Shown here: positions 3,042 through 59,956 of the stretch, one piece after another
Layout of the letters: every line of letters starts with the position of its first letter
How positions within the stretch are numbered: the stretch's first letter is position 1
Assembly (NCBI RefSeq): GCF_019469265.1
Contig: NZ_CP048268.1
Span: 1,147,501 to 1,211,500, forward strand
Direction of reading: 5' to 3'
Origin: Lactobacillus panisapium
GTDB taxonomy: Bacteria; Bacillota; Bacilli; Lactobacillales; Lactobacillaceae
Length of the DNA: 64,000 nt
Made by a program: the position numbers and the translations under genes
Notes under the pieces: generated by a model
The model's database searches: none
Told to the model about the DNA's origin: nothing
Seen by the model: only the letters and a program-made list of their open reading frames with translations

Positions 3042-4457
3042 TTACCACATTCCAATTACTTTTGTCCAAACAAGTCCGCCGCCAAGCCAGATTACGTTCA
3101 AGACAACGCCAATGATGGCACTGAGTTTCCACCAATCTTTATTGGAAACATAACCAGTTGAAGATAATAGAGCCGCTGGACCCGCAGAATAGCTCGAAGT
3201 TGACAGGTATAGTGAACCATCTAATGCAAGCATTAAAGCGGCCATGACTGGTGGTACTCCAGCACCAATTGCTATTGATAAAAAACCTGCATATAGAGCT
3301 GAAATTTGAGTTGATACACTTGGGAATAAATAATGTAGGTAAAAATAAGCTAAATATAAAATTACTAATACTAAAACCCAATTCATTCCGTGCAGTGCAC
3401 TTCCCAGAGTCTTTGAAAACCATGGGAAAAAGCCAAGCGTCATTAGTTTTTGCGACATCAACATGATGATTGACAACCAAGTTAAGATATTCCAAGCAAA
3501 GCTTTGTCCAAGAATATCTTTAACATTGATAACACCACAAATAAGTAAAAGAGCCACGGCGATAAAACTAACCTGGGTAGCATCTATTCCAAATTCTGGT
3601 CCAACTAACCATAAAATAACTGAGAGTAAGAAAACGATTCCCATGATCTTTTCGGCAGCCGTCATTTTGCCAAGTTTTTTCAATTTATCGTCTGCCCAAT
3701 CATGAGCATTAGGAGTTTCCTTAATCTTAGGTGGGTAAATTTTATATAAAATAAAAGGAACGACTAATAATGAAATCAAACCAGGAACAATTGCTGCTAA
3801 AAACCATTGCATCCACGAAATTGAAATGTTTTGCGTCTTTGCTATTCCAAGAGCTACCATGTTACCAGCTAAGCCGGTTAAAAACATAGTTGAAGTGACA
3901 ATATTAACTTCGTACTCATTGAAAACCAGGAAAGAACCCATGTCCCGTTCTGTTCCTTTTTTAGGATCAGAACCCATTTCTTTTGATAAGTTATCAATAA
4001 TCGGGTACATAATGCCATTAACACGCGCGTTGTTACTTGGAATACCAATTGCCAAAACAGTCTCAACTAAGGATAATGCGTAAGCTAAGCCTAAAGTTCT
4101 TTTACCAAAAGTTTTTACAAAGAAATAAGCAATTCTCTTACCTAATCCAGATTTGATAAAGCCAGCTGCCATAAACATGCACATTGCAACCATCCAGGCC
4201 GTCGAATTACCGAATCCCGCCGTAACTTCGTCCATTTTGAAGATACCGGTTAAGGTGGCAATTACAACAGCAATAATAGTTGTAGCCATCATTGGTAACG
4301 GCTTAGTCACACAAGCAACGATGGTTGCAATAAAAATCGCGAACAAGTGCCAAGCTGTGATATTGATTGCTGTTGGTCTAATCGGTGTGACTAGCCAAAG
4401 AATAAGGCCAATCCCCACTGGCAAGAGCCATTTTTTCCATTCAAATTTATCTAACAT
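3042..4457 (-). CDS. DASS (SLC13) family dicarboxylate/anion transporter
   Basis: This is a 471-residue polytopic membrane protein with about 12-14 hydrophobic segments. It has the CitT/SodiT-type DASS signature: TAWHLFAIFIATI near residue 35, the first helix hairpin motif IPSNNARVNGIM near 140, and a second SSYSAGPAALLS near 420. The group usually exchanges or co-transports C4-dicarboxylates, citrate or 2-oxoglutarate. It starts 21 bases after the stop of a flavin reductase gene, and the three genes form one operon transcribed from about 8100. By inference it imports the organic acid reduced by the reductases or exports the reduced product. Exact substrate is not deducible. Confidence 0.85.
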   Translation of the reverse strand: MLDKFEWKKWLLPVGIGLILWLVTPIRPTAINITAWHLFAIFIATIVACVTKPLPMMATTIIAVVIATLTGIFKMDEVTAGFGNSTAWMVAMCMFMAAGFIKSGLGKRIAYFFVKTFGKRTLGLAYALSLVETVLAIGIPSNNARVNGIMYPIIDNLSKEMGSDPKKGTERDMGSFLVFNEYEVNIVTSTMFLTGLAGNMVALGIAKTQNISISWMQWFLAAIVPGLISLLVVPFILYKIYPPKIKETPNAHDWADDKLKKLGKMTAAEKIMGIVFLLSVILWLVGPEFGIDATQVSFIAVALLLICGVINVKDILGQSFAWNILTWLSIIMLMSQKLMTLGFFPWFSKTLGSALHGMNWVLVLVILYLAYFYLHYLFPSVSTQISALYAGFLSIAIGAGVPPVMAALMLALDGSLYLSTSSYSAGPAALLSSTGYVSNKDWWKLSAIIGVVLNVIWLGGGLVWTKVIGMW

Positions 4458-9284: not shown

Positions 9285-10004
9285 TTAAGCTAAAATATTA
9301 AATAATGCTGCTGCTAGTGAACCACCTACAAGTGGTGCAATGATTGGAACCCAACTGTAGGCCCAATCAGAATTGCCTTTATTGGCGATTGGTAATAATT
9401 GATGAACCAATCGCGGTCCAAAGTCACGTGCAGGATTCAATGCAACCCCAGTAGGTCCACCAAGTGATAAACAAACTGAAGTAATTAAAAATCCAGCTAA
9501 TAATGGGTTTAAGCCATCGGCTAAATCACCGTTAGTTAAGGCTAACAAACCATAAACCAGGATAAAGGTTGCAATTAACTCAGTAAAAAAGTTCCAAACA
9601 TAATTTCTAATAGCTGGAGCTGTTGCAAAAGAAGTTAAAATTGCTTCTTCGTCCTTAGTTTCCGCCCAGTGCGGATAATAGGTTAGCCAAACTAAAACTG
9701 CCCCGACAATCGCTCCTAACACTTGAACTGCAAAATATGGTAATACTGCAGACCAAGGCAATTTATGAGCAATTGCCATCGACAACGTAACTGCCGGATT
9801 ATAATGGCCCGGACAGAGCCATCGTGCACTGAACACGCTGAATGCAACGGCAAAGCCCCAGCCAAAAGAAACAACTATCCAGCCACTCCCTTTGGATTTA
9901 GACTTGTTTAGGTTCGTCCCGGCACACACGCCATCACCAAGTAAAACTAGCATCGCCGTGCCTAGAAACTCCCCAACCAATTGCATTGTAAAGTTATTAT
10001 TCAT
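9285..10004 (-). CDS. glpF: MIP family glycerol facilitator / aquaglyceroporin
   Basis: This 239-residue, six-helix channel has both pore motifs: HYNPAVTLSMA near residue 66 and ALNPARDFGPRL near 190. The Asp after the second NPA-R is the residue that marks aquaglyceroporins rather than strict aquaporins. It should admit glycerol or dihydroxyacetone by diffusion. It precedes, on the same strand, no gene of its own operon but lies next to dhaKLM (10144-12113), which phosphorylates dihydroxyacetone. RBS GAGAGGG precedes the ATG. Related LAB channels can also pass water, lactic acid or other small neutral solutes, so the physiological solute is inferred from context. Confidence 0.9.
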   Translation of the reverse strand: MNNNFTMQLVGEFLGTAMLVLLGDGVCAGTNLNKSKSKGSGWIVVSFGWGFAVAFSVFSARWLCPGHYNPAVTLSMAIAHKLPWSAVLPYFAVQVLGAIVGAVLVWLTYYPHWAETKDEEAILTSFATAPAIRNYVWNFFTELIATFILVYGLLALTNGDLADGLNPLLAGFLITSVCLSLGGPTGVALNPARDFGPRLVHQLLPIANKGNSDWAYSWVPIIAPLVGGSLAAALFNILA

Positions 10005-10143
10005 ATCCCTCTCCTACCTCGATTATTGTGCTACAATCGTAGTCTTGTGAAATAATTATCAGTAGTAAATTACTCCCGGGAACAAATATATAACTTTCTG
10101 TCTCTTTTGTAAATATCAAAATTGCGCGAATAAAGGCTTAACA

Positions 10144-56286: not shown

Positions 56287-56502
56287 ATGAATGCTCTAGC
56301 TGAATCATACTTATTAATGTTAGAAAAAAAGTATAAAAAAATAATTTTAAACAAATGGGTCTGGGTAGTTGTAGGTTTAATTGTTTTTATTGGTATTGGC
56401 TCTTACGCATTTCATTGCACCAGTAGAGGATACAACTTTACTGGAAGTGTAAAATTACATTGGCCAAAGTTTTGGGAAATGGGAATAGGATGTAAACGAT
56501 AA
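56287..56502 (+). CDS. Candidate pre-peptide with membrane anchor and cationic two-cysteine tail
   Basis: The 71-residue protein has a basic N-region (EKKYKKIILNK), one helix (WVWVVVGLIVFIGIGSYA, residues 24-41) and a 30-residue tail. The tail begins FHCTSRGYN and ends WPKFWEMGIGCKR. S-Y-A at the helix end fits signal-peptidase cleavage; an M50-like protease is encoded downstream as an alternative. The tail has Cys44 and Cys69, net positive charge, three aromatic Trp/Phe clusters, and could close by one disulfide. A terminator follows directly and the exporter genes come next, as in bacteriocin loci. RBS is weak. I do not recognise the family; 'bacteriocin-like' is inference. Confidence 0.65.
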   Translation: MNALAESYLLMLEKKYKKIILNKWVWVVVGLIVFIGIGSYAFHCTSRGYNFTGSVKLHWPKFWEMGIGCKR

Positions 56503-56506
56503 ATTT

Positions 56507-56544
56507 AAAGCTGAAAGTTCTTTTAGGCTTTCAGCTTTTTTTAT
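56507..56544 (+). terminator. Hairpin between the peptide and the ABC genes
   Basis: AAAGCTGAAAG / CTTTCAGCTTT with T run. It would favour peptide expression with partial readthrough into the transport genes. Confidence 0.8.
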
Positions 56545-56573
56545 AAGTTTTAATCTGGAAGAATATTAGGACA

Positions 56574-57290
56574 ATGTTAAAAATTGAGAATTTAAATAAA
56601 ACATTTGGTAAGAAACAAATCTTTGCGAATTTAGATGCAACCTTTGGGGATACTGGTGTCACATTAATTGTTGGAATCAATGGCGTTGGAAAAACAACTT
56701 TATTAGACACAATATTAGGAATCAGTAAATATAACAGTGGGACTGTTGAGTTTAATGGACTGAGTTCTGATCAAAAAAAATTTAAAGAGCAGACATTTTA
56801 TGTTCCTTCAGACTTTTTTTTACCTGAATACATGACGGGTAAAGAATATTCTAATTTCATACTGAAACACTATCCTAATAGTAATTTAGCATTTTTTAAA
56901 AAATGTTCAGAGTGGTTAGGAATTAAAGACTCATTGAATAAAACACTAGAAACTTATTCTTTTGGAATGAAAAAGAAAATTCAACTTGCCATCATGGCAA
57001 GTTCAGGGACAACCCTAATTTTAGCTGATGAAATTTTTAATGGACTTGATTTTGAAACAACTATTTTCGTACAGAATTTATTGGATAAAATGAGTCAATC
57101 AGCTAAAATAATTATTGTTTCTCATGAACCAAGTGTTATAGACTTTTACAGCGAAGACATAAGAATACTAAATAACAAAAAATTAGAAAGAATGTATGGA
57201 ACTTCTGAGGCTGTAATTGAAAAAGTAAAGAAAGAGGGTAATTTAAATTCAAAGTTATGTCAAATGGAAAAGTATTTTAGAACTGCTTAG
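56574..57290 (+). CDS. ABC transporter ATPase of the peptide operon
   Basis: The 238-residue ATPase has Walker A VGINGVGKTTLLD near residue 38, a divergent signature (ETYSFGMKKKIQLAI near 134) and Walker B LILADEIFNGLDF near 152, then HEP switch His. AGGA lies 5-8 bases before the ATG. It is of the small export/immunity type (like NatA, SkfE or YydI). The permease follows. AT-rich codon use differs from housekeeping neighbours. Confidence 0.92.
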   Translation: MLKIENLNKTFGKKQIFANLDATFGDTGVTLIVGINGVGKTTLLDTILGISKYNSGTVEFNGLSSDQKKFKEQTFYVPSDFFLPEYMTGKEYSNFILKHYPNSNLAFFKKCSEWLGIKDSLNKTLETYSFGMKKKIQLAIMASSGTTLILADEIFNGLDFETTIFVQNLLDKMSQSAKIIIVSHEPSVIDFYSEDIRILNNKKLERMYGTSEAVIEKVKKEGNLNSKLCQMEKYFRTA

Positions 57291-57411
57291 TTTCTTTTTT
57301 AACGATTCACTACATGGCTTTTTAGACCGCCCTTTTTTTAGGAAAAAGTTAAATAGAGTTTTTCTGGGCATCGGCCTTTTCGCTGTTTACTATTTATACT
57401 TTTGGTTAAAT

Positions 57412-58608
57412 ATGCAGCAACTTTCAACTATTTCTAATTTAGCAAATACTTTTAATAAATCAAGGTATTTAATCGCGGCAAAGCAAACGTTAAGTAGCTA
57501 TTACAATTTATGCTTAGTCTTAAGTGTATTGATATATATCTTAGTTAATGCAACTTTTCAATTAACTCGTAATGCTTTGCATATAGCTAAAACTTTACCA
57601 TTTTCAGAAAAAGAAATCTGGCTATCACAAAAAATTTTTAAGATGATAAGTGGACTTTTTATCTTTGAGATTGTTTTAATAGTTTTGATTCCTAGTATTA
57701 AGCTAATAACTCATAATGTATTTTACTGTTTTATTCTTTTAGTTAACTTTCACCTAATTTTTTTAAGTCTATTTCTTATTCTAGATTTAATTTATGATTT
57801 TATTTTAGTTAATGTGCGTTCAAATACTAAATTAGTTGCTACATTTATGGATATACTGTTTGTAACATTGGTATCAGTTTATGCTTTTACAGCAAGATTT
57901 AAAGTTGATTATTTAGTTGGCCTGATCAAATTTAATGTAGGCAAGTTAATAAGATTCTCCTTTTTTATCTTACTTTGTATACTGATTATGCTAAATACAA
58001 TTACTCTAATACTGCAGCCACAAGAAATCATATCTAAAAAAAACAAATTTTGGAAATTGCCATTAATTGACTTCAAAAATATTATAGAAATTAGTTTACC
58101 AGCTATAATAAGAACACCAAATTTTGCCTATATTTTTTTATTTACGATAGTGATATTTTTATTCTCATCAATATACAATTCTGCAAATGATACTTTAAAT
58201 AACATGATGTTTGTTTTTCCTTTGATTGGTGTATCTGGAATTAGCTACTCTGATGCAACTCTAAAGTTCAGAAAACATTTCAAACTTTATAATATCTCCG
58301 AAAAATACGAGTTGTTGTCTATATTATTTACCGGCGTTGTGATATTAATTCCTGCTTTAGTAATTTCATTAATAAAGTTGAGAAATTTAGATGTCTTTGC
58401 TTTTGGATTCTCTATTTATTTATCTTCAATAATCTTAGGATTTTTGTTGCCTAAATCATATGGAAGTGTTAACGAAACCATATCGTCGATAATAATTTTA
58501 ATTGTTATAGTTCTCTTATCACTAACTTTGGTAAAAGCTGAGCTTTTATATATAATAATTTGCTTTTTGATATTTATCTTATTTATGATTTTAAAAAAGG
58601 GGATGTAA
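57412..58608 (+). CDS. ABC transporter permease of the peptide operon (start uncertain)
   Basis: The 398-residue frame has ten or so hydrophobic segments in two blocks, as in SkfF-like permeases. The same frame stays open upstream of the ATG, back past 57290, and encodes DSLHGFLDRPFFRKKLNRVF and LGIGLFAVYYLYFW, a good first transmembrane helix. That extension has no ATG, GTG or TTG; only ATT (57274) or CTG (57283) are present after GGAAAAG at 57266. So the true start is either non-canonical, overlapping the ATPase gene, or lost. Starting at 57412 would drop the first helix. Confidence 0.75.
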   Translation: MQQLSTISNLANTFNKSRYLIAAKQTLSSYYNLCLVLSVLIYILVNATFQLTRNALHIAKTLPFSEKEIWLSQKIFKMISGLFIFEIVLIVLIPSIKLITHNVFYCFILLVNFHLIFLSLFLILDLIYDFILVNVRSNTKLVATFMDILFVTLVSVYAFTARFKVDYLVGLIKFNVGKLIRFSFFILLCILIMLNTITLILQPQEIISKKNKFWKLPLIDFKNIIEISLPAIIRTPNFAYIFLFTIVIFLFSSIYNSANDTLNNMMFVFPLIGVSGISYSDATLKFRKHFKLYNISEKYELLSILFTGVVILIPALVISLIKLRNLDVFAFGFSIYLSSIILGFLLPKSYGSVNETISSIIILIVIVLLSLTLVKAELLYIIICFLIFILFMILKKGM

Positions 58609-58615
58609 AAGAATT

Positions 58616-58876
58616 ATGAATTTTTTTAAAGGTATAAGCCTAGGAAGTTGTACATATTTAGTAGCTTTCATGGTTGACTATGTTGTAGAACTATTCAGGA
58701 TCAATAGCTCTGGAGAAAAGATCACGTTCTTAGGTCTAAAAATCGTTACTTCCATGCGAGAAAACTCGTTGAATACCACTTTTTCTTTAACATGGAAGGT
58801 ATTAATTACATATGCTGTTTTCATGGTTGTTTTCATGCTTATATTTTCTGCTTTTAGAAAAATAAAAAGCAGATAG
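58616..58876 (+). CDS. Small two-helix membrane protein of the peptide operon
   Basis: The 86-residue protein has two helices (GSCTYLVAFMVDYVVELF and LITYAVFMVVFMLIFSAF) separated by a polar ~35-residue loop. It starts 8 bases after the permease stop and its own stop overlaps the next gene. Size and location fit an immunity or accessory subunit of the exporter; there is no recognised family. Confidence 0.65.
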   Translation: MNFFKGISLGSCTYLVAFMVDYVVELFRINSSGEKITFLGLKIVTSMRENSLNTTFSLTWKVLITYAVFMVVFMLIFSAFRKIKSR

Positions 58877-58878
58877 TG

Positions 58879-59236
58879 ATGATTCTTTTTACAATAAATT
58901 TTATTTTATCAAGTTTTATCGTTGTATCTCTTCATGAATCAATTCATTTTGTAGTAGCAAAAATTTTGAAATTATCACCTCATTTTTATGTTAGTAAATA
59001 TGGAACACCAACAGTCAAGTATAAAAACGAAAACAAATATTTTAAGACGTTTTTAACATCTATTAGTGCCCCCTATTGTGGTGGTTGTAATCGCAATTTT
59101 GTTACCTGAATCGGATCAGTTTAATCTGATCAAATTAATGGGACTTTTAAATATATTCAATTTATTACCTATAACAACTGATGGAGAAGTTGCTATTTAT
59201 GCACTTATTAAATTATGGATAAAAATAAAAAAATAA
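58879..59236 (+). pseudogene. M50-like intramembrane zinc protease, +1 frameshift at a C5 run
   Basis: The first frame has helix 1 with VVSLHESIHFVVAKIL, holding HExxH (residues 19-23). After residue 64 (SISA) it runs off into CGGCNRNFVT and stops at 59109. In the +1 frame, entered at the run GCCCCCTATTG (C5, 59069-59073), the protein continues PIVVVVIAILLPE and GLLNIFNLLPITTDGEVAIY to a stop at 59236. NxxPxxxxDG is the second M50 motif that supplies the zinc-binding Asp. The joined product would be 118 residues. It is a pseudogene, a slippage-switched gene or an assembly error. Confidence 0.75.
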
Positions 59237-59747
59237 TATATAGCATTTTAACTATTTTTATAATAATGTTATTACTGTACATTGGCTATGCAATAACTAA
59301 AAATAATGGCGGAGGAACAGGAAAATATAATGATTGTACCTCACAGTTTATACATGAGGATACAAGTAAAATTATGAAGAAGTTAGAAAGCAAGAAACGT
59401 GGAATTTACTATTTTGGATTTCCTACCTGTCCTTGGTGTCAAGAACTTTTACCAGTATTAGACTCTTCTCTAAAAAAAATAAACTAAAGGCATATGTAGT
59501 AAATACACGAGGAAATAATTACACTAGTAGTGATAATATTAAATTAGAAACTTTCTTTATTCACTATATAAGTAAAAGAAAAGGACTAACCGTTCCTTTG
59601 ATAATAATAATAAAAAATAAAGGATCTATTCGGGCTCATATAGCAACTGTGCCAGGTCATAATGCGGAAGTTAAAAAAATGAATAATTTTCAAAAAAAGA
59701 AATTATTAAATGAATTAAATGATATATGTAAATGGTATAAAAAATAA
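59215..59747 (+). pseudogene. PedC-like membrane-anchored thioredoxin, -1 frameshift at an A8 run
   Basis: The first frame (59215-59487) encodes an N-terminal helix (IIYSILTIFIIMLLLYIGYA) and YYFGFPTCPWCQELLPVL, the thioredoxin CxxC site. It stops three codons after CTA-AAA-AAA-ATA. In the -1 frame, entered at the A8 run (59472-59479), the fold resumes with NKLKAYVVNTRGNN and has KGLTVPLIIIIKNK, the cis-proline strand that must face CxxC. The joined protein is 177 residues, the size of bacteriocin transport accessory proteins (PedC/BrcD). The run A-AAA-AAA matches slippery heptamers. Confidence 0.8.
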
Positions 59748-59831
59748 TTTATAATATAATTATTTTTTTATAGATTATTGCTATGTAGAGAATTAAAGAA
59801 TCTAAAATAAATTAAAATATTTAATTGGCAA

Positions 59832-59876
59832 AGGCTTAACCATCGATAGAATATAGATGGTTAAGCCTTTTTGTCT
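59832..59876. terminator. Terminator ending the peptide operon
   Basis: AGGCTTAACCATC ... GATGGTTAAGCCTTTTT, 12-13 bp stem with T run. Confidence 0.88.
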
Positions 59877-59956
59877 GTTTTTGCTTATTCATTTTAAAAA
59901 AGTGAATATTTTTCTTCTGAAATATCAACTCTCTATGTTAGCTTATTTTTGTTCAA

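Follow-up and report, generated by a model that had tools for sequence, protein, structure and literature searches.

The chromosome of Lactobacillus panisapium (assembly GCF_019469265.1) carries, between lepA and dnaJ and on the strand opposite to both, a six-gene operon that is very probably a horizontally acquired and now degenerating locus for a TMcin-like bacteriocin. It lies in a window of 64,000 nucleotides (the whole stretch analysed, contig NZ_CP048268.1, positions 1,147,501 to 1,211,500 of the forward strand; coordinates below are those of the window) within a 2.19-Mb single-contig chromosome. The TMcin class was published in 2025-26 (PMC12328743, PMC13252029) and is, by its authors' account, rare, able to form large stable pores and overlooked by genome mining.

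TMcin-G1905 of Staphylococcus aureus is a bacteriocin whose mature form of 52 residues is described as having a membrane helix and, after it, a loop that C25 and C50 close; the peptide makes large pores, modelled as beta-barrels (PMC12328743). Its leader is cut on the N-terminal side of the helix, and the mature peptide retains the helix (PMC12328743, PMC13252029). In the published account, where the roles of TmcA to TmcE and of TmcP were tested in S. aureus, leader removal is assigned to TmcP (a DUF3267 site-2 protease), disulfide formation to the DsbA-like TmcD, secretion to TmcBC and an escort role to TmcE, which has two helices (PMC13252029). The L. panisapium operon shares with this system a one-helix precursor with two cysteines 25 residues apart, an ATP-binding cassette (ABC) ATPase with a large permease, a two-helix protein and a DUF3267/site-2 protease, and both occur in Bacillota and Actinomycetota. 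An earlier reading of the window, made from its letters and open reading frames (ORFs) and called here the sequence-only reading, had proposed a distinct class of disulfide-cyclised peptide; architecture and profiles instead place the locus with TMcin, so that the proposed class is for the most part one already known.

The sequence-only reading had the gene set and its order right. Peptide, terminator-like hairpin, ATPase, permease, two-helix protein, HExxH protease and CPWC thioredoxin follow one another on the plus strand, where the HExxH, N..P....DG and CPWC motifs are all present. The tmcA-like precursor of 71 amino acids (56287..56502, from the ORF call and an alignment of 40 sequences) is followed by an intrinsic-terminator-like hairpin with a 13-bp stem (56507..56538; spacer fold z -3.2). 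Downstream lie a tmcB-like ABC ATPase of 238 amino acids (56574..57290; PF00005 at E 4.6e-18, family profile at 294.9 bits over its full length), a tmcC-like permease (57247..58608, with an inferred ATT start at 57247; 521 bits over positions 3-453 of 458 in a family profile that has the window permease itself among its 13 sequences) and a tmcE-like protein of 86 amino acids with two membrane helices (58616..58876; family profile E 6.7e-26). The last two genes each occupy two frames: a tmcP-like site-2 protease of the M50/DUF3267 type (58876..59236, as 58876-59109 and 59066-59236, matching profile positions 1-67 then 63-118) and a PedC/BrcD-like membrane-anchored thioredoxin with CPWC (59215..59747, as 59215-59487 and 59433-59747, profile positions 1-85 then 84-172, with a weak match to TIGR01295). 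A strong hairpin closes the operon on the same strand, as had been claimed (about 59827..59875; -25.2 kcal/mol for 59825-59885). The gene set is not due to chance: 28 other loci hold several of these genes, in an order identical to that of the window wherever the contig shows it. The window permease has no significant match in Pfam or NCBIfam and none was found for it among solved structures, where the peptide gave nothing beyond four chance matches at E 0.3-0.46. An Rfam search found no match, and promoter-like sites were no more frequent than in shuffles (32 against a mean of 28).

The precursor has, as read from its sequence, a membrane helix at about residues 24-43 and a C-terminal loop bounded by C44 and C69, which a disulfide would close; its leader, judged by the spacing in TMcin-G1905, would cover about residues 1-19. 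The TMcin trait of a single-helix precursor with two conserved cysteines bounding a C-terminal loop of about 28 residues is thus present, the helix being judged from sequence alone. A search with the single sequence returned four proteins, and profile searches returned 35 (E up to 0.01) and 39 (E up to 0.1), making 60 in all (P0002-P0061). The cysteine pair, predicted to be conserved, is kept in 54 of these, at a spacing of 25 in 44 and of 22 in 10. Six (P0013, P0026, P0058-P0061) do lack it, which goes against the prediction at face value, but they are partial records or, as we read them, truncated or frameshifted. In the alignment of 40 sequences Y40, C44 and C69 are invariant, W24 and W26 on the N-terminal side of the helix nearly so, and the residue ahead of C44 is tyrosine in at least 90%. 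Source labels include Exiguobacterium, Sporosarcina, Bacillus, Priestia, Streptococcus, Oenococcus, Lactococcus, Lactobacillaceae and Actinomycetaceae, together with staphylococci (a Staphylococcus xylosus plasmid, S. delphini and S. pseudintermedius). Every peptide gene seen had ABC transporter genes beside it (interrupted in locus L058), so no homologue without exporter genes came to light. Nor did the peptide prove to belong to a known non-bacteriocin family, matches there being weak and all below cut-off: NCBIfam YtzI at 11.4 bits for the window peptide and 20.9 for P0029 (cut-off 33), and Pfam Ceramidase at 14.7 bits (cut-off 32.5). The suggestion that only a 30-residue tail is released found no support; because cleavage of the TMcin-G1905 leader lies N-terminal of the helix, the mature product here probably keeps the helix and, by TMcin-G1905 spacing, spans about residues 20-71.

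The gene neighbourhood was examined with six profiles in 29 distinct loci including the window (filters of at least 100 bits for the ATPase and E 1e-3 for the others). Duplicates were counted once (L009 = L043, L012 = L079, L015 = L041, L011 = the G720 locus), and L021, with only a weaker ATPase match, and L022-L025, with none passing, stand outside the 29. Three loci cut by contig ends (L008, L019, L060) were excluded from presence counts, leaving 26 uncut inside the operon; many of the 29 were found via the ATPase or permease or contributed to the profiles, and the counts that follow do not come from a random sample. Of the 26 uncut loci, 23 have a full peptide gene and 25 the two-helix gene (it is absent in L020), while the protease is full in 21 of the 23 peptide-bearing loci, the exceptions being the window and L013. 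The thioredoxin is more variable: 11 of the 26 have a full gene and 12 have none (seven Exiguobacterium loci, Sporosarcina L042, the actinobacterial L020, L007, L010 and L059). In the window the gene is split, L013 has part of it, and the copy of L039 has diverged and lies in divergent orientation. The recurring order is peptide, ABC ATPase, permease, two-helix protein, site-2 protease and, where present, thioredoxin, and the expected adjacency of the peptide to ABC and M50 genes, often with the thioredoxin, is conserved across loci. HExxH and DG motifs are found in all nine aligned protease relatives, and PF11667 was matched by all five intact relatives scanned, above the gathering score in one.

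The locus is an insertion between dnaJ and lepA. When 12 congeneric relatives were queried, ten had a dnaJ match; the dnaJ-lepA gap is 4,237 bp here against 89-144 bp in nine of these and 615 bp in the remaining one. The peptide family is also rare and patchy. Clear matches were found in two of 75 genomes of the genus, the window genome and G024; three of the five genus-level matches (E 0.002-0.009) contain internal stops, were treated as chance and are excluded from this count. Among 398 genomes drawn from the class, the permease occurs in 10 and the peptide in 13, which include all 10; the other three have a second-type transporter, described below. Carriers at the order level number 4 of 395 genomes, the peptide is present in 7 of 19 Exiguobacterium genomes, and a permease match was found in 7 of 147 genomes of a genus taken, by protein likeness, to be Streptococcus. 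PLSDB plasmids held no DNA or proteins of this branch, the permease was not found in phage records and the peptide was absent from viral contigs (eight pattern matches, none a relative). A literature search with six sequence motifs of this system found no paper.

The expectation of an intact operon failed, since in the window both the protease gene and the thioredoxin gene are spread across two overlapping frames. Both look frameshifted because each half matches its own, complementary half of the family profile. Short homopolymer runs lie in both break regions, and slippage and sequencing error are both possible causes. Were the splits sequencing errors, the operon would be intact and active in this strain. 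The homopolymer runs and the good conservation of the second half of both genes speak for that explanation, but the genome is a single complete contig, the ORF list of the window, judged by eye, has no other obvious break, and the window peptide carries H43 where at least 90% of the alignment has tyrosine; on balance we regard sequencing error as unlikely. For a degenerating operon, as we prefer to read it, the split frames lead to the prediction that this strain makes no mature peptide, yet it still encodes the precursor and the transporter module. Decay resembling that of the window is seen in L013, from a Clostridia metagenome-assembled genome, where the protease and thioredoxin are partial while full genes remain for the peptide (cysteine spacing 22), the ATPase, the permease and the two-helix protein.

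A further alternative is that the operon produces a signalling peptide made in the membrane: a conserved peptide, freed by the site-2 protease and exported by the ABC pair, would be sensed. Across genera the C-terminal loop shows striking conservation; this would suit a signal as well and tells against a bacteriocin, the loops of bacteriocins being usually less conserved. RRNPP-type regulators are moreover encoded upstream in some loci (Rgg_C in L016, L058 and L040, RNPP_C in L055, and a weak helix-turn-helix match in L038). Such regulators, however, usually sense short linear peptides and not a helix with a 25-residue disulfide loop, the TMcin relatives are antimicrobial, and no regulator directly adjoins the peptide gene in the window, so that we consider a signalling role improbable. 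Between the RNPP-type regulator and the peptide gene of L055 lies an ORF of 61 amino acids (4135-4320) with a signal-like hydrophobic stretch, which could encode the signal peptide of that regulator.

Common descent of the system with TMcin has good but not complete support from sequence comparison. Searching with the TMcin-G1905 sequence revealed relatives on six plasmids (Peribacillus, Roseburia, Staphylococcus epidermidis and three from Paraclostridium), four of which were read as loci: L100 (Peribacillus), L101 (Roseburia), L102 (S. epidermidis) and L103 (Paraclostridium), the last with a peptide 39% identical to TMcin-G1905. In profile-profile comparisons against pooled TMcin profiles, the permease matched TmcC at 91.1% (339 columns), the protease TmcP at 93.7%, the two-helix protein TmcE at 68.6% (89 columns) and the peptide TmcA at 67.7%. 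With single proteins, the permease reached 74.2% against TmcC of Peribacillus, the protease 68.5, 94.6 and 93.8% against TmcP-type proteins, and the peptide 93.3% against TmcA of Paraclostridium and 77.7% against that of Roseburia. Control comparisons with single unrelated window proteins gave at most 9.2, 1.9, 1.2 and 1.4% for the permease, protease, two-helix protein and peptide (n = 11, 36, 25 and 25), and another ABC permease gave 0.1%. The ATPase profile scored 162-200 bits against TmcB-type proteins versus 101 bits against another ABC ATPase. These comparisons support common descent for the permease, the protease and, through intermediates, the peptide.

Several observations weigh against this assignment. 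Direct sequence similarity is weak: the peptide family scores 9.3 bits against TMcin-G1905, a value equalled or exceeded by 65 of 2000 shuffles with fixed cysteines, and we rejected this single-sequence match as proof of identity because it is too weak alone. With the S. epidermidis locus the permease reached only 3.8% and the peptide 19.7%. The two-helix protein gave 10.9, 0.9 and 0.6% against three single TmcE candidates, those of the Roseburia and Paraclostridium loci having been assigned here. Pooling raises scores, while the controls were single sequences, and the link to TMcin runs via the Peribacillus, Roseburia and Paraclostridium members and the pooled profiles. Two highly conserved tryptophans, a trait not known to be essential, are reported to flank the helix in the TMcin family; here there is none ahead of the first cysteine, where TMcin-G1905 has tryptophan and this family mostly tyrosine. 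The systems differ further in that the peptide gene comes first here and last in the S. epidermidis locus, and in that the thioredoxin is PedC-like with CPWC, compared with a DsbA-like TmcD with CPHC in staphylococcal loci. The protease is also smaller, with HExxH at 16-23 and 82-83 residues to the aspartate, as against H68 and D158 in TmcP (PMC13252029). The branch stands well apart from TMcin-G1905, and we file it as a divergent TMcin branch.

Related peptides also occur with a permease of a second type, found in four of the 398 class genomes (L071 in G705, L072 in G642, L073 in G784 and L078 in G596). L071-L073 encode a related peptide with a cysteine spacing of 22, an ATPase, a permease of about 500 amino acids, a PqqD-bearing M50-type protease and a small membrane protein; PqqD was identified by Pfam in L071 and L073, the two scanned, and the M50 part was recognised from its motif together with a weak match to a profile. 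L078 has an ATPase, a permease and a protease frame of second-type look by eye. These PqqD-type loci, to which a Paraclostridium bifermentans plasmid (CP124688.1) adds another, share with the present branch a peptide with helix and cysteine loop, an ATPase, a permease, an M50-type protease and a small membrane protein. They differ in the PqqD domain on the protease (L071, L073, L103), in the gene order A-B-C-P-E, in the cysteine spacing of L071-L073 and in a permease not detectably related to that of this branch (3.2%). PqqD goes unmentioned in the main text of both TMcin papers (PMC12328743, PMC13252029), and the second-type peptide of L071 was not found in plasmids. A bacteriocin unrelated by descent to TMcin, with an architecture reached by convergence, would account for the marginal TMcin-G1905 match, for the S. 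epidermidis permease that is unmatched singly and for the unrelated second-type permease; we think it hardly likely, as the permease, protease and peptide profile links exceed controls, the second-type peptides match both this family (32-40 bits to its profile, a level reached by no shuffle among the 1967-1996 scored) and TmcA (95.8%), and the Paraclostridium locus, with its peptide 39% identical to TMcin-G1905, shares the second-type PqqD-protease layout.

The claim of a bacteriocin-type locus without a radical S-adenosylmethionine (SAM) enzyme stands, as Pfam and NCBIfam searches with the ORFs of the operon found none. The SkfA and YydF loci contain a peptide, an ABC pair, a protease and, in skf, a thioredoxin-like protein, as here, and both need a radical SAM enzyme; a radical SAM peptide locus (SKF, epipeptide) was rejected for want of such a maturase in these scans. 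A pediocin-type class II system was likewise rejected, as the family alignment has no double-glycine leader and the 238-residue ATPase no peptidase domain match.

TIGR01295 (PedC/BrcD) is the best NCBIfam family for the four intact thioredoxin copies scanned, at no more than 33.5 bits against a cut-off of 120, and among solved structures a 'bacterocin transport accessory protein' (PDB 1zma) is the best match to the sixth gene. The gene product thus resembles PedC/BrcD as a CxxC thioredoxin of a bacteriocin locus, but its score is far below the equivalog cut-off and the operon has neither a double-glycine peptide nor a peptidase-domain transporter. It is plausible that this membrane thioredoxin joins C44 to C69. 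In the TMcin account tmcD is missing outside staphylococci, so that membership of the family does not depend on it, and distantly encoded oxidoreductases are suggested instead (PMC13252029); the word thioredoxin is absent from the main text of both papers (PMC12328743, PMC13252029). A thioredoxin encoded in the operon could do the work of TmcD in non-staphylococcal loci. Staphylococcal TMcin loci are apparently not the only ones with oxidoreductase genes: the TMcin-like locus of the Paraclostridium plasmid L103 contains a Thioredoxin_4 (PF13462) protein (9663-10073). In Streptococcus ovis (L018, 8643-9155), the thioredoxin has tryptophan for the first cysteine of CxxC (SWPWC).

Two features of the operon bear on its expression. 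The permease frame has no in-frame ATG, GTG or TTG ahead of the conserved N-terminus, and the family profile sets its start at ATT 57247-57249, after a ribosome-binding-like stretch inside the ATPase gene. A broken permease was suspected for want of a usual start and is now thought less likely, because the Lactobacillus-type relative G024 has ATT at the equivalent position (L038, 8183-8185), also with a ribosome-binding-like stretch ahead, although in G024 an in-frame GTG exists further upstream. ATT is a rare start and might lower the permease relative to the ATPase. The hairpin at 56507-56538 is a probable attenuator and, lying between the peptide and ATPase genes, would favour the peptide over the transporter; 8 of 11 peptide-ATPase spacers tested in the family fold with z of -2.2 or lower.

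In intact relatives, the precursor would insert in the membrane with the leader inside and the cysteine loop outside, where the membrane thioredoxin would form the disulfide. The site-2 protease, aided by the two-helix protein, would then strip the leader within the membrane, and the ABC transporter would lift the helix-bearing peptide out. The released peptide would enter other Gram-positive cells and oligomerise there, forming a beta-barrel pore with a ring of helices around it. In the producer, the ABC transporter may also work with the two-helix protein to remove the peptide from the membrane and so confer immunity, a matter that the TMcin authors state to be uninvestigated (PMC13252029). 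We tentatively propose that the ATPase-permease-two-helix module provides immunity (and export) in this branch and that it spreads by itself as a resistance cassette, an idea that we find about as open to doubt as to belief, with doubt slightly ahead. Two loci, L007 (Lysinibacillus alkalisoli) and L059 (genus taken to be Streptococcus), have the three genes of the module but none for peptide, protease or thioredoxin; L010 (Fictibacillus) has all three intact, and next to them survive 17 residues of the peptide end and a weak trace of the protease (E 4e-4). A retained immunity device would have this appearance. Counter to the idea, the permease is interrupted in L018 and L058 (in L058 the ATPase too), where the peptide and protease genes are intact.

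The branch extends the TMcin architecture to lactobacilli, streptococci and Exiguobacterium; the source labels of related peptides add Oenococcus, Staphylococcus and Actinomycetaceae. The thioredoxin that many of these loci carry offers an answer to how non-staphylococcal producers close an essential disulfide. Finally, the orphan transporter cassettes provide a direct, testable handle on TMcin self-immunity and could show how producers protect themselves.

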